Shown in pieces: positions 414 to 37,788 of a stretch of 37,788 nucleotides of DNA; within the stretch, counting starts at the first letter, position 1; each line of letters begins with the position of its first letter. The stretch covers positions 1-37,788 of the forward strand of contig JALNYB010000006.1 in the NCBI GenBank assembly GCA_023230065.1, in the 5' to 3' direction. The position numbers and the translations under genes are program-made. The notes under the pieces were generated by a model that worked only from the letters and a program-made list of their open reading frames with translations, made no database searches and was not told the origin of the DNA. The DNA is from Candidatus Methanomethylophilaceae archaeon. Lineage in GTDB: Archaea; Thermoplasmatota; Thermoplasmata; Methanomassiliicoccales; Methanomethylophilaceae.

Positions 414-2252
414 TCAATCCATTTCGGCTTCCTCGAATTGACTGTTGTACAGATTGCAATAGAAACCGCCGTCCGCAAGAAGCTGTTCGTGAGTGCCGCT
501 CTCGATGATGCTTCCATTTCTCATAACAAGAATAAGATTCGCATTCTTGATCGTTGAAAGACGATGAGCTATCACGAACGATGTACGTCCTTCGGTGAGC
601 TTGTCCATAGCTTCTTGAATGTGTTTCTCCGTCCTTGTATCAACGGAACTTGTAGCTTCATCTAATATCAAAAGCGGTGCATTCTCGATCATTGCACGTG
701 CGATGGTTATCTGCTGTTTTTGTCCTGCAGATAAGGTTGTCTTGTCGCTCAGGACAGTATCGTAACCGTCTGGAAGGGTCATTATAAAATGATGGATACC
801 TACGGATTTAGCTACTGCTTCGACCTGTTCTTCTGTGATCCCCTCTTTGCAGTAGATGATATTATCACGAATTGTTCCATCAAATATCCATGTATCTTGC
901 AATACCATACAGAACAAATCGTGAACGTTCTCACGTGTGAGTTCTTTTGTAGATACTCCGTCTATCAGGATATCTCCGCTGTTTACCTCATAAAAACGCA
1001 TTAGAAGGTTCACCAACGTGGTTTTGCCAGCGCCGGTTGGTCCGACGATGGCTATCTTCTGTCCTGCCTTTATGTTGGCTGAGAAGCCGTGAATGACCTC
1101 TTTATCAGGCGAATAACCGAAATGAATCTCCCGGAATTCCACATCTCCCTTGACATTTTTAAGAACGGTTTTCTTCTCGCTTTCATCGTTGAGTTCGGGT
1201 TCTTCCAGGAATTCAAACACACGTTCTGTAGCTGCTGCTACGGACTGCATACCTGTGACAGCCTGTGCAATCTGCGAAAGAGGCTGTGTGAACAGACGTA
1301 CGTATATCATGAATGCCACGATTATGCCGAATGATATCGCGCCGTTCAAAACCAATATCGCACCTACGATACATACTGCGACATATCCTATGTTGCCTAT
1401 GAAATTCATAAGAGGCATCATCAGTCCAGAAAGGAATTGTGATTTGAATCCGCTTTTGAACAGATTATCATTGATTGCATCGAACTTTTCCTTTGCCTGC
1501 TTTTCTCCGTTGTATACCTTTACAATGTTGTGGCCGGAATATATCTCTTCCACATGACCATTCATTGCACCGAGGTTCTTCTGTTGGATTGCAAAGTATT
1601 TCTGAGATCTGCCCATTATAAAGAACATCAGTCCGAATCCTACCAATGTTGACAAGACTACAGTGGCCATCATGGTGAGGTTGGTCACAGTCATCATTAT
1701 CAATGAACCGACGAGAAGAGTTATTGCTGTAACCAGAGTGCTTATGCTCTGATTCATCGACTGACCGATGGTATCAGCATCATTGGTCACACGACTCAGC
1801 ACATCTCCTGTGCTAGAACTGTCAAAGTATTTGAGTGGAAGACGATTGATTTTCTTTGAAATATCATCACGTAGATTCCTTGCTGTTCTTTGCGACACTG
1901 TAGCAAGAATATATCCTTGTAAGAACGAAAGTATAGCACTTATTCCGTAGATAATGATAAGGAACACACCTATTGCGCTTATTGCGCCGAGATCCGTAGT
2001 ACCTGAAATAATACCTTCTTCAATAATATTGGTAATATCACTGAGTTTATTAGGTCCTACAAGTGTCAGCATCGTTCCTATTGCTGCCAGTATGACCGCT
2101 CCTATGAAGATCACTTTGTAGGATTTCATGTATACGAATAGTTTCTTCCATGCGATCTTGAAATTCTTGGCCTTTTCTACAGGCGCTCCTAGACCGTGAC
2201 CAGGGCCTCTACCGGGAAGAACGTTTCTTCTTTCACCGTTATCATCGCTCAT
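414..2252 (-). CDS. ABC exporter subunit with canonical ATPase domain (MdlB/LmrD-like half-transporter)
   Basis: A 612-residue half-transporter. An ABC membrane domain with about six helices spans roughly residues 40-340, followed by a nucleotide-binding domain. Visible motifs are Walker A GPTGAGKT (404-411), Q-loop LQDT (451-454), signature LSAGQ (507-511), Walker B ending LLILDE (527-532) with the catalytic glutamate E532, and the switch histidine H563 in IAHRLST. It therefore supplies the canonical residues. Its start overlaps the stop of the upstream ABC gene by 4 bases, so the two are translationally coupled and probably form a heterodimeric exporter. Drug or lipid export is usual for this family, but the substrate is not visible. 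Expression is probably controlled by the MarR gene at the head of the operon. Confidence 0.93.
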   Translation of the reverse strand: MSDDNGERRNVLPGRGPGHGLGAPVEKAKNFKIAWKKLFVYMKSYKVIFIGAVILAAIGTMLTLVGPNKLSDITNIIEEGIISGTTDLGAISAIGVFLIIIYGISAILSFLQGYILATVSQRTARNLRDDISKKINRLPLKYFDSSSTGDVLSRVTNDADTIGQSMNQSISTLVTAITLLVGSLIMMTVTNLTMMATVVLSTLVGFGLMFFIMGRSQKYFAIQQKNLGAMNGHVEEIYSGHNIVKVYNGEKQAKEKFDAINDNLFKSGFKSQFLSGLMMPLMNFIGNIGYVAVCIVGAILVLNGAISFGIIVAFMIYVRLFTQPLSQIAQAVTGMQSVAAATERVFEFLEEPELNDESEKKTVLKNVKGDVEFREIHFGYSPDKEVIHGFSANIKAGQKIAIVGPTGAGKTTLVNLLMRFYEVNSGDILIDGVSTKELTRENVHDLFCMVLQDTWIFDGTIRDNIIYCKEGITEEQVEAVAKSVGIHHFIMTLPDGYDTVLSDKTTLSAGQKQQITIARAMIENAPLLILDEATSSVDTRTEKHIQEAMDKLTEGRTSFVIAHRLSTIKNANLILVMRNGSIIESGTHEQLLADGGFYCNLYNSQFEEAEMD

Positions 2253-3991
2253 ACACTCAACTCCTCTTCTGAGAGTTGCGAACTGGCTATCTCATAATAT
2301 ACGGGGCATGTCTTCAACAATTCTTTGTGTTTACCGATACCTACGATACGTCCCTCATCGATAACAACGATCTTATCAGCATCCATTATGGTACCGATCC
2401 TTTGTGCTACGATCAAACTTGTAGTACCTCCAGTCTCTTTCTTGAGAGCATTCCTGAGCATGTGGTCTGTCTTGTAATCCAACGCAGAAAACGAATCATC
2501 AAAAATGTAGATCTCTGGTCTCCTGCATACTGCACGTGCTATGGAAATACGCTGTTTCTGTCCTCCTGATACATTTGTACCACCCTGCGATATCAGACTA
2601 TTGTACTTTCCTTCCATCTTCTCAACGAAATCAGTACTCTGTGCTATTGATATGGCTTTACGGATATCTTCTTCGGTATCGAATTTACTTCCATATGTGA
2701 CGTTGGATGATACCGTACCTGCGAATATCACGGCTTTTTGCGGAACATATCCCATTTTACTGTGAAGTGCATCTTGAGTGTATTCACGTATGTCCACGCC
2801 ATCGATGGTTATCTGTCCTTCAGTGACGTCATAAAAACGTGGTACTAGATTCACAAGTGTGCTCTTACCGCTTCCTGTGGAACCTATGAATGCGACCGTC
2901 TCTCCTTTGTGAACATCGAAACTCACATCCTTGAGAACATAATCCGATGCGCCTGGATATTTGAATCCGACATTTTTGAATGATATTTCTCCTACTTCAT
3001 TATTGGGTGCAGTTGTAACGGTTCCATCAAGGATCGTGGATTCTGTGTTTATGACTTCTTCCACACGTCTTGCAGCTACCGTTGCACGCGGAAGTATCAT
3101 GAATAAGATTATCAGCATCATGAACGCCATGACTATCTGCATGGCGTATGCAGAGAACACAACCATATCTGAGAACAATGTCAATTGAGAAGCTGTACCA
3201 GCAGATGATATTAATATTGCCCCTATCCAATAAACAGATAAAGATAGGAGACTCATTATTGTCGTCATTGACGGCATCATCACGGACATTGCACGAGTTG
3301 TGAATAGATTATTCGCCGTCAGGTCTTCATTAGCTTGATCGAATCTATTTTCCTGATATCCTTCAGCATTGTATGCGCGTATAACACGGATTCCCGTAAG
3401 ATTTTCTCTTGTTGTACGATTGAGATTATCTGTCAGCCACTGTATCTTCTTATAACGCGAAGTGACAAAGAACATCAATAGACCGATTATCAAGATCAGC
3501 ACGAATACAGCAACAGATGTTGCTGCTGTCCACTGCCAACTTTTTCCCGAAATCTTTATTATTGCCCAAACAGCCAAGATAGGTGCCTTTATGGTAATCT
3601 GAAGACCCATAGCAAGTGCCGTTTGTATCTGTGTTATGTCATTTGTAGAACGCGTGATCAAACTTGCAGTGGAGAATTTATTTATCTCCTCCATAGAAAA
3701 TGATTCTACTTTATCAAATTGCAATTCACGAAGACGTTTTGATAATGATGTTGCTACCCACGTGGCCATATAACCTACGATGATGGATGACACAAGGCTT
3801 CCGAGTGCGCATGCGATCATGCCCCAACCCTCAGCCATAACCATATCCGATGTTCCGTGTGTGGATATTATGTTAGTTATAGCAGACATGTACCCAGGGA
3901 TCTCCAGGTCAAGATAGACTTGCAGTCCGATCAGGACGACACATGCAACTATGATGCCCCATTCCTTTCCTTTGAGGTATTTAAGTATCAT
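2249..3991 (-). CDS. ABC exporter subunit with degenerate ATPase site (MdlA/LmrC-like half-transporter)
   Basis: A 580-residue half-transporter with an N-terminal six-helix ABC membrane domain (about 10-300) and a C-terminal nucleotide-binding domain: Walker A GSTGSGKS (370-377), signature VSGGQ (474-478), Walker B IYIFDDS (494-500). The catalytic glutamate is replaced by aspartate (D499) and the switch histidine by glutamine (Q530 in VAQRIGT). These two substitutions are typical of the degenerate-site partner in heterodimeric exporters such as TM287/288 or LmrCD. The partner at 414-2252 carries the intact residues, so the pair should have one active and one weak site. The start ATG overlaps the extended marR stop in an ATGA junction, which argues for coupling to the regulator upstream. 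Confidence 0.92.
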   Translation of the reverse strand: MILKYLKGKEWGIIVACVVLIGLQVYLDLEIPGYMSAITNIISTHGTSDMVMAEGWGMIACALGSLVSSIIVGYMATWVATSLSKRLRELQFDKVESFSMEEINKFSTASLITRSTNDITQIQTALAMGLQITIKAPILAVWAIIKISGKSWQWTAATSVAVFVLILIIGLLMFFVTSRYKKIQWLTDNLNRTTRENLTGIRVIRAYNAEGYQENRFDQANEDLTANNLFTTRAMSVMMPSMTTIMSLLSLSVYWIGAILISSAGTASQLTLFSDMVVFSAYAMQIVMAFMMLIILFMILPRATVAARRVEEVINTESTILDGTVTTAPNNEVGEISFKNVGFKYPGASDYVLKDVSFDVHKGETVAFIGSTGSGKSTLVNLVPRFYDVTEGQITIDGVDIREYTQDALHSKMGYVPQKAVIFAGTVSSNVTYGSKFDTEEDIRKAISIAQSTDFVEKMEGKYNSLISQGGTNVSGGQKQRISIARAVCRRPEIYIFDDSFSALDYKTDHMLRNALKKETGGTTSLIVAQRIGTIMDADKIVVIDEGRIVGIGKHKELLKTCPVYYEIASSQLSEEELSV

Positions 3992-4452
3992 TCTGAATCC
4001 TTCTTGGCCTCATGGTAACTTTTATCGTCCCCGAGTTCACTCTTTATTTTCGTATATATCTTACTCATTATCGATTTCAGTAATATGGCCTCTTCGTCAG
4101 TCAGACTACCGAGTAATTCATCACTGATTTCATGCATTGATTTCTATATCAAAACCTCAGCTTCATGACCTCTTTCGGTAAGCACAAGTTTGTATTTCTG
4201 AGGATACTCACTTATGTTGTCAACGAATCCTGTCTCCATAAGTTGCTTCACCGCACGAGTGGTCAGTGCTTTGTCAACAGACCTCTCTGCAGTAAGGTCT
4301 TTCATAGACGTTCCTTCGTTTTTGCCTATTGAAACTATGAAAAAACTCTGAGATGCAGTAATGCCCATTGATTCTATTTTAGAATTCATCTTTTTATCCA
4401 TATATGATTTCATCAGGTGTGGTATAAAGATATCATGCAGCCCTATATTCAT
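3988..4452 (-). CDS. MarR-family repressor with in-frame amber codon (candidate pyrrolysine protein)
   Basis: The frame from ATG 4452 encodes a MarR winged helix (HTH around SMKDLTAERSVDKAL and TTRAVKQLMETG, wing ending KLVLTERG). At 4144-4146 it meets TAG, codon 103, then continues in frame for 51 codons (KSMHEISDELLGSLTDEEA...). That is just where MarR proteins carry the C-terminal dimerisation helices. It stops at TGA 3988-3990, in an ATGA overlap with the ABC exporter start. Read through, it gives 154 residues, the usual MarR size. Stopped at TAG, it would lack those helices. Other checked genes here avoid TAG, so insertion of pyrrolysine or another amino acid is plausible. A start 17 codons upstream (4503) is less likely, because it would translate the TATA box and operators. 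Alternatives are a nonsense-mutated gene or a sequencing error. Confidence 0.75.
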
Positions 4453-4456
4453 ACCA

Positions 4457-4497
4457 GTTGACATATCAACAACATATTTAACCGTTGACATATCAAC
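4457..4497 (-). promoter_or_regulatory. marR-ABC exporter promoter with twin 14-bp operators
   Basis: Two identical copies of GTTGACATATCAAC lie at 4457-4470 and 4484-4497. Each is an inverted repeat (GTTGA-N4-TCAAC), and they sit 27 bp apart, start to start. Between them, at about 4473-4480, is a TATA-like TAAATATG on the minus strand. It is placed about 25 bases before ATG 4452, as expected for a leaderless archaeal transcript. A dimeric MarR protein bound at either copy would block TBP or polymerase, so autorepression and control of the exporter are the natural reading. The binding protein itself is inferred from position. Confidence 0.75.
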
Positions 4498-4516
4498 GTA
4501 CATAACGATAACTTAA

Positions 4517-4531
4517 TTTACACAGTGTAAA
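4517..4531. promoter_or_regulatory. Palindromic operator between marR and tetR
   Basis: TTTACAC-A-GTGTAAA is a perfect 7-bp inverted repeat with one central base in the 64-bp space before tetR. Its core fits TTAC-N5-GTAA, a pattern seen twice more at 5397-5409 and 5426-5438. Position and symmetry suggest a TetR autoregulatory site. Confidence 0.6.
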
Positions 4532-4567: not shown

Positions 4568-5194
4568 ATGGACCTGAAATTCAAGCGGGCACGCAGCAAA
4601 GAGAATAAAGAAAAGAGATTTTCAGATATACTTGACGTGTCCGTAGAATTGTATGACAAATTACGTTATCCCGGTTTGACTTTCGAAGAAATATCAAAAA
4701 GATTGAATATCACGCGTCCCGCGATATATAAATACTTCAAAACAAAGGATGAGATTCTTGTAGAAATACTTCTTAGAGATTTTAGTCGCCTATGTGATGA
4801 TCTTTTAGATAATTTTAATCCTTCTGTAGAATATACGAAAGAAGAGGTCGCTGCATTATGGACCGATGTCATGATGAAGAACAAGAGAGTCATGGATGTT
4901 TTGTCACTTCATTCTTCGTCCATTGAAAAGATGATTTCTGCTGAATATAACAGCGGACCAGAAAGTATCATAAAAAAATATATTGAGATACTTAAAGAAT
5001 TAACAAAACGTCTTATTCCCGGCATCGATGATGATACTGCCGTTGATTTCATCTTATATCAGATATCGTTTGCTGTGGGTCTATATCCATTCATGAAAAT
5101 AAAAATGAATGATAGCGATCCAAACAAGGAGATATTTAGATTTAACAGGATATATCGTGAGAATATTCTTATAAAATTGGAATCGATGAATTGA
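4568..5194 (+). CDS. TetR-family transcriptional regulator
   Basis: A 208-residue protein with a TetR N-terminal DNA-binding domain. Helices before residue 35 lead into the HTH at about 37-62 (LTFEEISKRLNITRPAIYKYFKTKDEIL), including the family hallmark AIYKYFKTKDEI. The remaining 140 residues form a variable helical ligand/dimer domain with no recognisable ligand signature. GGAG at about 4557-4560 is a suitable ribosome site for ATG 4568. The gene is divergent from marR and convergent with the small lysine-rich gene at 5264, from which a strong hairpin separates it. A palindrome sits just upstream, and similar palindromes flank the promoter of that small gene, so both are probable targets. 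The ligand is unknown. Confidence 0.9.
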   Translation: MDLKFKRARSKENKEKRFSDILDVSVELYDKLRYPGLTFEEISKRLNITRPAIYKYFKTKDEILVEILLRDFSRLCDDLLDNFNPSVEYTKEEVAALWTDVMMKNKRVMDVLSLHSSSIEKMISAEYNSGPESIIKKYIEILKELTKRLIPGIDDDTAVDFILYQISFAVGLYPFMKIKMNDSDPNKEIFRFNRIYRENILIKLESMN

Positions 5195-5233: not shown

Positions 5234-5263
5234 AAAAAGAAAATGATGAATACAAAAAAAAGT

Positions 5264-5362
5264 TCAGTTCTTTGCATTTTTCTCTGCTTTTACCTTCGCC
5301 TTCTCTGCTTTCTTTTTTGCGCTGTTCTGTTTCATTTCTGCCATTTTGTCTTTGAAGCTCAT
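5264..5362 (-). CDS. Tiny lysine-rich protein, 32 residues
   Basis: The minus-strand frame encodes MSFKDKMAEMKQNSAKKKAE and ends KNAKN before TGA. It is about one third lysine with many Ala and Glu and no Cys, and is predicted to be a short charged helix. A GGGGG-containing stretch 5-10 bases upstream of the ATG can serve as a ribosome site. A TATA-like TTATTTATAC (about 5415-5424, minus strand) is flanked by two TTAC-N5-GTAA palindromes, and a terminator hairpin follows the stop. A dedicated, apparently regulated promoter and terminator make a real gene likely despite its size. I do not recognise a family. A similar lysine-rich mini-protein lies at 5954-6091. Confidence 0.6.
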   Translation of the reverse strand: MSFKDKMAEMKQNSAKKKAEKAKVKAEKNAKN

Positions 5363-5394
5363 TTTTGTTACCCCCTTGCATGTTCTGCAAGTTA

Positions 5395-5438
5395 AATTAC
5401 ACATAGTAATTAAAGTATAAATAAGTTACTTAATGTAA
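5395..5438 (-). promoter_or_regulatory. Promoter with paired TTAC-N5-GTAA operators
   Basis: Two imperfect palindromes, TTACACATAGTAA (5397-5409, extended to AATTAC-N5-GTAATT at 5395-5411) and TTACTTAATGTAA (5426-5438), flank the TATA-like box of the 32-residue gene. Both match the core of the palindrome beside tetR at 4518-4530, suggesting one repressor serves both places. Confidence 0.55.
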
Positions 5439-5953: not shown

Positions 5954-6091
5954 TTACTTGATCTTCTTCTCGAGCTTAGCAAGTTTTTTCTTTGCACCGT
6001 TATCTCCAGAGTTTACCTGTTGAGTGAGTTTCTCTGCTTTCTCTTTCTTCACTTTGTTCTGTTTTGATAACTGTTTTTTGCTCATCGCCAT
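5954..6091 (-). CDS. Small lysine-rich protein, 45 residues
   Basis: The frame from ATG 6091 (a second in-frame ATG lies at 6085) encodes MAMSKKQLSKQNKVKKEKAE, then a short Gly/Asn/Asp linker, and ends KKKLAKLEKKIK before TAA. It is strongly basic, likely two charged helices, without Cys or membrane segment. TATA-like ATCTAAATAG lies near 6122-6134. No strong ribosome site is visible, so a leaderless or short-leader mRNA is possible. It is similar in style, though not clearly homologous, to the 32-residue protein at 5264. Nucleic-acid or ribosome association would fit the composition, but nothing shows it. It sits just downstream of trpA in the same direction. Confidence 0.5.
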   Translation of the reverse strand: MAMSKKQLSKQNKVKKEKAEKLTQQVNSGDNGAKKKLAKLEKKIK

Positions 6092-6219
6092 GCAATAGTC
6101 ACTTGACCCCGTCTTGGATTACGCCCTATTTAGATTTTTGCTTTTTAAAAACCAATTGAACAAATAGAAATAATCGATCATTTTTCGGAGACATTGTAAA
6201 CATGATATGGTTTCACATC

Positions 6220-19991: not shown

Positions 19992-20195
19992 ATGGAAAAT
20001 TTCTCTGAGAAGATACCGCAACACAGACATTGCACGGTCTGCGGCAAAGCATTCATCGGCGAAGGCTACTTCTGTAGTGATGGATGCAAAAACTCAGCAG
20101 GAAAGGAAGCTCGGGGTAAACTCGGAAAATACATGATTGTCTGGGTTGTAATAATCGTAGCAACCATTGCACTCCTTCTGGTTACCGGAATTTGA
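19992..20195 (+). CDS. Zinc-ribbon membrane-anchored protein (DUF2116-like)
   Basis: A 67-residue protein with an N-terminal zinc ribbon, HCTVCGKAFIGEGYFCSDGC (two Cys pairs), a basic linker and one C-terminal membrane helix (IVWVVIIVATIALLLVTGI). This layout matches small archaeal DUF2116 proteins of unknown function. The stop TGA lies within GAGTGAT, which serves as ribosome site for the next gene, so the two are probably coupled. Confidence 0.75.
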   Translation: MENFSEKIPQHRHCTVCGKAFIGEGYFCSDGCKNSAGKEARGKLGKYMIVWVVIIVATIALLLVTGI

Positions 20196-20203
20196 GTGAT
20201 ATT

Positions 20204-21151
20204 ATGTTCTCAGCAGTTGCAGGAACTTTCAATATTCTTCACAGCGGTCATAAAGAACTTATCGATAGAGCATTCGACATCGGGGATGAGGTCTTCATAG
20301 GCATTACTACGGATTGCATGGCCTCTTTGAACAGGTCAGATATTATTCCACTATATCTAAGAAAAAAAGAATTAGAAAATTATCTTTCAAATAAGACCAA
20401 ACCGTGGTCGATTGTAGAAATAGATACTATATATGGTCCTTTAGACAAGATGGATAAAGTGGATATTCTCGTGGTATCAGAAGAAACACTTGATAACGGA
20501 AAAAAACTTAATGAAGAAAGAAAAAGCAGAGGCATCAGACCACTTGAATTATGTGTAATGCCCTTAAGAATATCCTCAGACGGTGAAAAAATCAGTTCTA
20601 CGGGCATATTAAAAGGAAGATATGCAAGGAACGGTGAATCCAATGTTATGGATATTGCTGTCGGATCACTTAATCACATAAAGATCGAAGCGGTCCGTAC
20701 AGTGATGGAACGCGTATATGGAGATGTAAAGATAACAGCCATAGATGCAAACAGTGGAGTTCCTCCTCAACCTTTTGAAAATGAGACAAGACTTGGTGCT
20801 ATCAACAGAGCCAAAAGTGCAATTGGAACGCATATGATGTCAGTAGGTATCGAAGCGGGTGTATTCGAAAAACTTGACGGGTTATATGATTATCAGTATT
20901 GTGCGATATTAGATCGTGAAGGGAAGATGACGATTGGAACAGGATGCGGATTCAGATATCCGGATAAGGTTGCAGATCTTGTCCGCAACGGTTACACTGT
21001 GGGAGATGCAGTTCACGAAATCTACGGCAACATCGATATTGGAAAAAAACAAGGCGCGGTAGGACTTCTCAGTAAAGGCCTTCTGGACAGAAAAAATCTA
21101 ACAGAACAGTCGGTCACAGCTGCAATGATACCTAGGTTATGGGATGAATGA
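20204..21151 (+). CDS. Fusion: phosphopantetheine adenylyltransferase and DUF84 ITP/XTP pyrophosphatase
   Basis: From ATG 20204 (a TTG four codons earlier is the alternative) the 315-residue protein has two domains. Residues 1-about 145 are an archaeal CoaD-like nucleotidyltransferase with GTFNILHSGHKELIDRAF (the HxGH-type site), ISSTGILKGRY near its end and an FIGITTD strand. Residues about 148-315 start MDIAVGSLNHIKIEAVRTVM and contain GVPPQPFENETRLGAINRAK and SVGIEAGVF, the DUF84/YjjX family of inosine/xanthosine triphosphatases. The first domain makes dephospho-CoA, and the second removes non-canonical purine NTPs. Neither domain looks broken. FAD dehydrogenase follows after 3 bases. Confidence 0.85.
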   Translation: MFSAVAGTFNILHSGHKELIDRAFDIGDEVFIGITTDCMASLNRSDIIPLYLRKKELENYLSNKTKPWSIVEIDTIYGPLDKMDKVDILVVSEETLDNGKKLNEERKSRGIRPLELCVMPLRISSDGEKISSTGILKGRYARNGESNVMDIAVGSLNHIKIEAVRTVMERVYGDVKITAIDANSGVPPQPFENETRLGAINRAKSAIGTHMMSVGIEAGVFEKLDGLYDYQYCAILDREGKMTIGTGCGFRYPDKVADLVRNGYTVGDAVHEIYGNIDIGKKQGAVGLLSKGLLDRKNLTEQSVTAAMIPRLWDE

Positions 21152-34590: not shown

Positions 34591-36666
34591 ATGATTGATA
34601 AATCTGATATGGTTCTAGGAATTGTACTTCTTGCAGGAATAATCATCTGCGTAGGTATTGTGATTGCTACAGGTGCATTGAATGATAACTCAGATAACAA
34701 CGATTATACTGGAACATATGCAGTATATTCATTCGATGATTATGATGAAGATGTCAGCGGAGACCTCTTTTATGATCTCGCATTCATTGATGGCGATATC
34801 TCAGCAATATATAGAGAAGATGGCACTGTAATGTACTCAATAACTGGATACAACAACGGAAATTATACTGTTGTATCCGATTTAGATCTGAATGGAAATT
34901 ATATCCTCGACAGAACATTGGATCTCAGTTCTGTTGTAGATTTTGCTGGATTCACATATTCATATTCTTATCTAGGTAAAAATCCAGAACAAAATGTATG
35001 GATCAAGGAATTTTATAATTCAATGGGATATCAAGTCACACAATTGATTTATTCAGACAATAGCGAAACATTAGTGGGATCCACCATATACTGGATACAT
35101 ATAACTTCATACAAGACAGATTCAGATAAGACCAATCTTATAAAGTTCGATTACAACATAGAAAACAATATGGTGACAGACATAACCTATAGCGCCACAG
35201 AAAATAGTACTAGTATCATATCGTACAACCCATTCATAAAATCTTTTGACAGGGACCCTGATTCAGAAGGCTTGGATGATAGATTTGGATATATCATCAA
35301 CGAAGAAATCTATTCAGATATAGGTAGTGACAGTACAGGAAATTATGTAAAAACAATAGAGATCAACAAAGAATCACAATTAATAATCTCATCGAGTTTC
35401 AATTACGATGTTACGAATTACGGCTATGATTACTACCTATTGAGAACGAATGTAACGATACCCGTTGCTGTAATGGATGATACCGCATCTGCTACCTATA
35501 AATTCAATGAGACCGGAAAAATAACTTCAGAAGATGAACTTTACAATTATATGTTTGTATCCGGTCCGTCATCCGTAACATATTACCAAAATGGAACCGT
35601 AAGTTACACTGTTCTGAACATGTATACAATAGATAATTCTTTCTTCTATATGGTAGGAACAGACAAAGACCTCACTGGCAATGTATATTGGACAGGCATT
35701 GTAGAACTCGATGATGTCGTGGATACGAATGGTTTTATCCCTATGTATCAATATATCATCATTGATGGAAATGTTGAATATCTCTGGCAAAAGATCATAA
35801 AAGATGGAGATCAGACTCTTACATATATTTTGTACAGTGATAACAGTTCAGCACTCAGTGGCACCTCGACCGTCTTCAGGATCGAATTGAACATTTACAT
35901 AGATACGGTCCCCGTACAATACATAGGCAAAATCGCATACACTCTTGATAATAATGTAGTGACCGGTATAACATATATTGTGAATTCCTCTATAATAACA
36001 TCACAAAAACACCATCCTTTTATGACAGATTATACTTCTAATGCAAGTTTGGGAATAGTTTACATAGAAGACCTTCCGAGAGCTGTATATTACTATCCTG
36101 ATACAGAAATAACAATAAATGGAGAGACGTACGTATATTCGAAAGAATTTGAAATAACAACTGGACTTAACATGTATATGACCCTTAGCAGTGAATCACT
36201 CGGGTATGATTATAATGAATATATCATTACAAGTGATATCAATGTGCCTCCCGCAGTCGGAGTGAATTCATCATTCACATATGTATCCACAGACAATGAA
36301 GGCGAATACATATACAGGTTTGATGTTATAAACTCGGATAATACTGGATATACTTTAAATGTATACCAGATAGACGGCGAGAACTCTACTTTGACCAATG
36401 TTATCACCATACCTGCACCATATCACTTCATAGTGTCCAATATGGATGATGGAACGGCCATTCAAACAGGCATAACAACATTCGAAAGATACGATGGATC
36501 TATAATACCAGTCGAGGTCTATGAATTCACTTATGAAGGAGATCGCATCGTATTCTATGTGAATAATTGCATAGTTTACGGCTATGAATGCTATGCTGAA
36601 GGTGAAATAGAACCATATTCTGTGGGAGAGTTGACACTTTATACTATAGAATTACCAAGTGCATAA
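34591..36666 (+). CDS. Large membrane-anchored surface protein with internal repeats
   Basis: A 691-residue protein with one N-terminal hydrophobic segment (MVLGIVLLAGIIICVGIVIA, an uncleaved anchor or signal) followed by an acidic, Tyr/Asn/Asp/Ser/Thr-rich exterior. It contains two long repeats, about residues 40-300 and 300-545, with matched marks: FIDGDISAIY versus FVSGPSSVTYY, LIYSDNSETL versus ILYSDNSSAL, NNMVTDITY versus NNVVTGITY, and NVTIPVAV versus NVPPAVGV. A third partial unit runs to the end. Many N-x-S/T sites suggest glycosylation. There are almost no cysteines. Likely a beta-rich adhesin or surface-layer protein, family unknown to me. A strong terminator follows. Confidence 0.75.
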   Translation: MIDKSDMVLGIVLLAGIIICVGIVIATGALNDNSDNNDYTGTYAVYSFDDYDEDVSGDLFYDLAFIDGDISAIYREDGTVMYSITGYNNGNYTVVSDLDLNGNYILDRTLDLSSVVDFAGFTYSYSYLGKNPEQNVWIKEFYNSMGYQVTQLIYSDNSETLVGSTIYWIHITSYKTDSDKTNLIKFDYNIENNMVTDITYSATENSTSIISYNPFIKSFDRDPDSEGLDDRFGYIINEEIYSDIGSDSTGNYVKTIEINKESQLIISSSFNYDVTNYGYDYYLLRTNVTIPVAVMDDTASATYKFNETGKITSEDELYNYMFVSGPSSVTYYQNGTVSYTVLNMYTIDNSFFYMVGTDKDLTGNVYWTGIVELDDVVDTNGFIPMYQYIIIDGNVEYLWQKIIKDGDQTLTYILYSDNSSALSGTSTVFRIELNIYIDTVPVQYIGKIAYTLDNNVVTGITYIVNSSIITSQKHHPFMTDYTSNASLGIVYIEDLPRAVYYYPDTEITINGETYVYSKEFEITTGLNMYMTLSSESLGYDYNEYIITSDINVPPAVGVNSSFTYVSTDNEGEYIYRFDVINSDNTGYTLNVYQIDGENSTLTNVITIPAPYHFIVSNMDDGTAIQTGITTFERYDGSIIPVEVYEFTYEGDRIVFYVNNCIVYGYECYAEGEIEPYSVGELTLYTIELPSA

Positions 36667-36752: not shown

Positions 36753-37788
36753 ATGATGAAGAAGACTTTGATTCTTGTCGTTGACAGGGATGATGATTTC
36801 GGAGTAAAAGGAAAAGTCGACTCTCCTGTAATAGGTGTAGAAGAGTGCTCGGTTGCAGCCACGGCACTGGGGATAGCTGACCCTGAGGATTCTGATATCA
36901 ACGCTCTTTACGCTGCCATCAACATCTACAAAGAGATGAAAGATGAACACGAAGGAGAAGTCGAAGTCGCACTCATCTGCGGTAATCAAAAAGTAGGATA
37001 CAAATCAGATTCTGCAATCATCGATGAATTAGAGATAATTCTTGAAAAGATCAATCCCACACGTATCATCCTTGTTGGAGACGGCGCAGAGGATGAATAC
37101 GTCTATCCTATCATATCGTCACGCGTACCTATTGACTCTGTTAGAAAAGTGTATGTTAAACAAGCACCAGGATTGGAAGGAACAGTATATATCATATCCA
37201 AAATCATGGAGGATCCAGGAAAGAGAAAAAGATTCCTTGCACCTTTGGCATGGATCATAATCTTGATATCATTGGTATATATGACGCCATCTATCATCGA
37301 TCATATCAACAAAGGAACTTCATTTTCTAATGTCACTACGCCGATGGTAGTATTACTGATTGGTTTTGTATTCCTGTTGTATGCATACAACCTGGAAGAC
37401 TCGCTCAGCCGGTGGAAGACCAAATGGACATCTAGATTAAGAAATGGAAGTATTACTGTCACTTTTTTGTTGGTATCTATATTATTCCTACTATCGGGAT
37501 TGGTGATAGGCTGGTATTCTCTAGAACAGGTCTACACCACAAACATATTGCAAGAAATAATCTGGTTTGTATCGAATGCATTATGGTTTATGATATTTGG
37601 CATATTGATATACAAGACCGGGGATCTGATTGATAGATATATTTCTACAAAAAAACTCAACATGAGTTTCGTTTTTGTAAGCATAAACGTTGTTGCAATG
37701 GGGCTGATCGCAACCGGCTCACTCGATCTGGCTCAGATATATTTGAAAATAGGAATCAACAACTCCGTTATTGCGATTCTTGAACTGG
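36753..37788 (+). CDS. DUF373-family membrane protein, partial at window end
   Basis: The frame from ATG 36753 is open to the window edge (345 codons seen). Residues 1-about 150 form a soluble domain starting MMKKTLILVVDRDDDFGVKG, with IIVGDGAED-like ILVGDGAEDEYVYPII and SSRVPIDSVRKVYVKQAPGL. These are the marks of archaeal DUF373 proteins. From about residue 165 there are repeated membrane helices (FLAPLAWIIILISLVYMTP, VVLLIGFVFLLYAY, VTFLLVSILFLLSGLVIGW and others). The family is widespread in archaea and its function is unknown. TATA-like CTTATATTGA lies about 25 bases upstream, so the message is probably leaderless. Confidence 0.85.
   Translation, partial: MMKKTLILVVDRDDDFGVKGKVDSPVIGVEECSVAATALGIADPEDSDINALYAAINIYKEMKDEHEGEVEVALICGNQKVGYKSDSAIIDELEIILEKINPTRIILVGDGAEDEYVYPIISSRVPIDSVRKVYVKQAPGLEGTVYIISKIMEDPGKRKRFLAPLAWIIILISLVYMTPSIIDHINKGTSFSNVTTPMVVLLIGFVFLLYAYNLEDSLSRWKTKWTSRLRNGSITVTFLLVSILFLLSGLVIGWYSLEQVYTTNILQEIIWFVSNALWFMIFGILIYKTGDLIDRYISTKKLNMSFVFVSINVVAMGLIATGSLDLAQIYLKIGINNSVIAILEL

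Follow-up and report, generated by a model that had tools for sequence, protein, structure and literature searches.

An in-frame amber codon, probably decoded as pyrrolysine, in an archaeal MarR-family repressor gene

The marR-type gene that precedes a two-gene ABC exporter in an archaeon of the Methanomassiliicoccales, probably a gut methanogen, is interrupted by a TAG codon that is flanked, in the same frame, by coding sequence of one protein, the arrangement by which a pyrrolysine-containing protein is recognized. We consider it likely that this codon is decoded as pyrrolysine and that the repressor works as a normal, full-length MarR dimer. The gene lies on contig JALNYB010000006.1 of Candidatus Methanomethylophilaceae archaeon, within a stretch of 37,788 nucleotides that was analysed as a whole and is referred to here as the window. 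Decoding of the TAG is well supported, if indirectly, and an amber-coded gene of this sort is expected in organisms of this kind.

The first-pass annotation had described a TAG at codon 103, 51 open codons behind it in frame and an ATGA overlap with the exporter gene, all of which was confirmed; the strand, which it did not state, is the minus strand. From the ATG at 4452, 102 codons (4147–4452) lead to LTERGHEAEVLI and, as judged by the open reading frame, the Pfam MarR_2 match and helix prediction, comprise helices 1–4, the wing and the start of helix 5. The TAG itself (4146–4144) falls within predicted helix 5 (residues 93–114), and the frame then continues with KSMHEISDELLGSL for 51 sense codons (codons 104–154, 3991–4143), which codon usage and profile homology mark as coding and which are predicted to form the remainder of helix 5 and helix 6. 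It ends at a TGA (3990–3988) that overlaps the exporter ATG (3991–3989) as ATGA (3988–3991). With read-through the product has 154 residues from ATG 4452; the frame is also open further upstream, to an ATG at 4503, and the third codon behind the TAG is also an ATG (4137–4135). By its winged-helix MarR signature the gene encodes a MarR-family regulator: the 102-residue part scored 28.0 bits with Pfam MarR_2 (cut-off 27) and 24.9 with MarR (cut-off 24.6), and a 171-residue read-through version, carrying the tail and 17 extra N-terminal residues, came just under these cut-offs (26.8 versus 27 and 24.1 versus 24.6).

By sequence comparison the stretch after the TAG is genuine MarR coding sequence, and the argument rests most heavily on its homology to MarR proteins. 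Against a profile built from the 30 bacterial loci that matched best, the first 102 residues scored 65.2 bits, the full protein 95.4 and the tail alone 18.6, and none of 1000 shuffled tails brought the full score to 95.4 (mean 67.4, maximum 77.3). The 30 loci, translated in pieces cut at stops, were the best matches from a search in which 128 of 398 genomes (the phylum of genome G001) matched. Since the read-through sequence had served as the query in choosing them, and this favours homology in the tail, the test was repeated with MarRs chosen by gene order, namely nine upstream ORFs judged by eye to be MarRs in an examination of 32 of 43 loci with exporter relatives. The score against this second profile rose from 11.8 to 34.8 bits with the tail (15.0 for the tail alone), and the best of 1000 shuffled tails gave 24.4. 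These exporter-adjacent MarRs are 13–20% identical to the window MarR and were rejected as close relatives of it.

Among NCBIfam models, adding the tail raised the scores for BilQ (from 50.2 to 61.1 bits), TcaR (22.5 to 33.4), MarR (19.4 to 25.1) and Saro_0803 (16.0 to 24.5), and that for OhrR by 3.3; the weak or winged-helix-only models Sta1, Lrs14, Csa3 and AdcR showed no gain, and the tail alone gave two chance-level NCBIfam matches and none to a MarR model. An open stretch of 51 codons has a probability of about 0.013 under a first-order Markov model, and the codon-usage score of the tail (13.4 bits) ranks at the 39th percentile among 187 coding segments drawn from window genes, a level reached by one of 935 off-frame segments. 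A chance open frame is thus disfavoured by the codon usage and open-frame statistics as well as by both profile tests. Helices 5 and 6 form the dimerisation region of MarR proteins. The earlier suggestion that the post-TAG part represents dimerisation helices agrees with the predicted helices and the alignment, which place it at the end of helix 5 and in helix 6; these C-terminal helices would be complete only if the TAG is read through.

The residue that replaces the TAG in homologues had been proposed as a check on the amber reading, and all 30 best bacterial matches were found to have a sense codon there, among them codons for Lys (9), Glu (7) and Gln (3). The site is variable among the aligned relatives. 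Several places in the bacterial match search were flagged with internal stops; among the 30 loci this was the case for L058 only, which carries one TAG, aligns on both sides of the site and has Q at the site itself. MarR/SlyA-type proteins of known structure or curated family, including MTH313 (3bpv), M. mazei 3s2w, MexR (1lnw) and BilQ (NF045593), resemble the read-through window MarR in fold and length, but the aligned relatives have sense codons where the window gene has TAG, and the BilQ score of the window MarR remains below the curated cut-off of 125. The amber codon probably originated at this variable position through substitution of a single base in a codon for Lys, Glu or Gln (AAG, GAG or CAG), and was probably retained because decoding of TAG is efficient. 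The pyrrolysine residue would probably be neutral, tolerated rather than needed. A dispensable pyrrolysine has reportedly been found in a tRNA-His guanylyltransferase.

A search of about 5.8 billion proteins yielded 73 candidates that shared words with the query, two of which passed an E value of 0.01. The first, P0002 (115 residues), is 97% identical to the window MarR, with 2 differences over 102 residues, and the second, P0003 (120 residues), is 83% identical, with 16 differences over 102 residues. Both end exactly at AEVLI, at the residue before the window TAG, and their clusters come from different sources (ncbi/ena and jgi). The stop of both is probably also TAG, the comparison being one of database protein ends rather than of DNA. 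When searched alone, the tail retrieved one protein, P0004 (49 residues, 2 changes), whose annotated start corresponds to the ATG three codons beyond the TAG. We take P0002 and P0004 to lie on one contig (1,656,407 bases), so that this sister of the window would carry both pieces of marR as two ORFs. Persistence of one codon over 16% protein divergence would be unsurprising under neutrality as well, and it therefore argues against error or decay more than for a need of pyrrolysine. Searches of genome-contig and viral-contig collections yielded no relative of the window gene.

The annotation of the sister as two separate ORFs is what a true stop would produce, and the amber position is known from the window and two relatives only. 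The TAG would then mark either a recent pseudogene or a truncated, 102-residue protein without dimerisation helices, the tail being a relic. Changes in the sister are no rarer in the tail (2 of 49) than before the TAG (2 of 102), although these numbers are tiny. We think this reading rather unlikely, since the tail keeps normal codon usage, an open frame and MarR homology and is intact in the sister, since the same boundary is found in the 83% identical P0003, and since the ATGA overlap with the exporter exists only with the TAG read through. It is further disfavoured by the stop-codon usage around the gene.

Indeed, window genes avoid TAG as a stop. Among 32 of them selected from the ORF table by eye, with marR excluded, none ends in TAG, 20 end in TGA and 12 in TAA, against 788 TAG among 3719 stop triplets (P of about 5e-4). 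Archaea that use TAG throughout as pyrrolysine have reportedly been found. According to Borrel et al. (PMC4153887), the share of TAG among stops is 1.6% in M. alvus and 11.3% in M. luminyensis. The window has a GC content of 40% and carries archaeal-type genes for ribosomal protein S19e, a dsDNA_bind protein, eIF-6, a DUF373 protein and HMG-CoA reductase. In favour of a true stop, no pyl gene or tRNA-Pyl was seen in the window (ARAGORN found one tRNA, for Ala), and membership of the Methanomassiliicoccales alone does not guarantee pyrrolysine decoding, since MALP, a basal genome of this order, is described as being without the Pyl system (PMC6147122). A PylS search did not return the contig of P0002 among the 120 matches listed of 3453, and the PylS family search of the Christensenella genome of bacterial locus L001 gave one match, below the cut-off.

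A PYLIS-type RNA element after the TAG was rejected: a 120-base segment starting just upstream of the TAG showed no significant folding (z of −1.43; 16 of 200 shuffles as stable), and Rfam at its gathering thresholds found tRNA only in the window. RNA structure after the TAG has been described as not required for decoding (PMC9499178). Listing the window ORFs with TAG read as sense shows further amber-interrupted candidates besides marR, of which those at 36986–37297 and 37301–37684, both on the minus strand, were discounted as antisense to the DUF373 gene.

The MarR family typically controls efflux genes and binds palindromic sites. Upstream of marR, a putative operator GTTGACATATCAAC (4457–4470) adjoins the ATG at 4452, and an identical second one (4484–4497) lies 27 bases from the first. 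Each copy agrees with its own reverse complement at 12 of the 14 positions, and with up to 2 mismatches allowed the window has no further copy; at least two such matches were also obtained in 17 of 100 shuffles. In the upstream frame these sites encode the peptides VDMST...VDMST, which are also present in P0003, suggesting that the putative operators have been kept. Between the two lies a possible TATA box, TTAAATAT (4474–4481, minus strand), about 26 bases before the ATG, a placement that would suit a leaderless transcript under repression by the protein it encodes. A separate palindrome, TTTACACTGTGTAAA (4517–4531), stands between marR and a divergent TetR-type gene (4568–5194, plus strand), to which it may belong; a weaker copy, at chance level, is found at 5397–5409.

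The marR stop overlaps the start of the first exporter half-transporter gene (2249–3991, minus strand), which is joined by another ATGA overlap to the second (414–2252, minus strand). Such 4-base overlaps occur in 6 of the 14 same-strand neighbour pairs listed in the window, the marR/exporter pair included. In the arrangement that we favour, an amber-decoding tRNA would read codon 103 as pyrrolysine to give a 154-residue repressor that dimerises through its terminal helices, and the dimer would bind the two GTTGACATATCAAC sites flanking its own promoter and so repress both itself and the two half-transporters translated after marR via the ATGA overlaps. Half-transporter 1 reaches 63% identity with bacterial proteins, most of them from Clostridia by record title, which suggests that it was acquired horizontally; between the window MarR and its closest bacterial match, identity is only about 32%. 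A scan for relatives of half-transporter 1 gave 43 loci, all bacterial by title; as the scan used six exact 8-residue patterns, an absence of archaeal relatives does not follow.

As a special case of pyrrolysine decoding, the supply of pyrrolysine might itself be a regulatory signal, scarce Pyl-tRNA giving a truncated repressor and a derepressed exporter. Truncation would remove the remainder of helix 5 and all of predicted helix 6, and competition at UAG between Pyl-tRNA and an archaeal release factor has been proposed, along with degradation of the truncated products (PMC9499178). A switch of this kind would, however, need both a variable pyrrolysine supply and a real truncated product; constitutive expression has been argued for M. 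alvus (PMC4153887), and no methylamine gene was seen among the window proteins scanned. Moreover, a stop at the TAG would leave the exporter start 152 bases downstream, and the loss of the ATGA overlap could lower exporter translation. Because stopping would impair the repressor and at the same time remove the overlap, its effect on the exporter could take either sign, and we regard such a switch as unlikely. The interpretation put forward in the first-pass annotation was thus strengthened by the MarR nature of the tail, the sense codons of homologues, TAG avoidance and the two relatives ending at the same residue, but the dependence of the exporter on pyrrolysine that it proposed is unsupported; in M. 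alvus, TAG stops are described as rare by Borrel et al. (PMC4153887).

It is also quite unlikely that the pyrrolysine in helix 5 is functional, either because the repressor is complete only with Pyl-tRNA or because the pyrroline ring senses amines, so that the exporter would follow methylamine metabolism. In a methyltransferase this electrophilic ring is described as forming adducts with ammonia or hydroxylamine (PMC2933860). In MtmB, MtbB and MttB, whose in-frame TAG read as pyrrolysine makes them comparable to the window marR, the residue is thought to activate the substrate (PMC2933860), whereas the site in the window MarR varies among relatives and is probably a tolerant one.

A stop at the TAG followed by a restart at the ATG of 4137–4135, from which the sister tail P0004 is annotated, would give a split MarR of two polypeptides; we consider this very improbable, as the break would fall inside one continuous predicted helix 5 and no split form was seen among the 30 aligned loci. 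A sequencing or assembly error at the TAG, a single base in one window, is hardly credible given that two database clusters (ncbi/ena and jgi), 97% and 83% identical to the window MarR, share this end point.

Amber-containing regulators are already in print, and the MarR example adds to them. MA2902 of Methanosarcina acetivorans, which has a counterpart in M. barkeri, is likewise a regulator with an in-frame TAG in a pyrrolysine-decoding archaeon, although it belongs to the TetR family (PMC1914089, PMC3639795). In Ca. Methanomethylophilus alvus, 16 non-methyltransferase pyrrolysine proteins have been predicted, ordinary genes with an in-frame TAG like the window marR, among them AGI85186.1, an 'Rv0623-like transcription factor' (PMC4153887); for ISO4-H5, of presumably the same order, 46 amber-containing genes are described (PMC5011839). 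No MarR appears in Table 7 of the former source or in the ISO4-H5 passages of the latter. A literature search over titles and abstracts, with most subscription papers outside its reach and absence accordingly unproven, found no description of a pyrrolysine-containing MarR, in agreement with the first-pass statement that none is described, the amber TetR MA2902 notwithstanding.

If the TAG is decoded, synthesis of a complete repressor depends on the machinery for the 22nd amino acid, and in-frame amber codons can tie ordinary regulation to an expanded genetic code. The gene would make a small test case, with a short protein, a readable target promoter and a site with known sense-coding relatives. 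It also bears on annotation: with the marR of the sister entered as two fragments, similar genomes may conceal further amber-coded genes in this way.

Elsewhere in the window, two short lysine-rich ORFs were identified by eye on the minus strand, at about 5260–5370 and 5955–6092, and a 691-residue protein (34591–36666, plus strand) matched no Pfam model at 1e-5 and no NCBIfam model at 1e-3. Fusions of phosphopantetheine adenylyltransferase and NTPase occur in Thermoplasmata, and one such fused gene (PF01467 and PF01931) lies at 20192–21151 on the plus strand, scoring 267.5 bits with NF002250, below the cut-off of 489.
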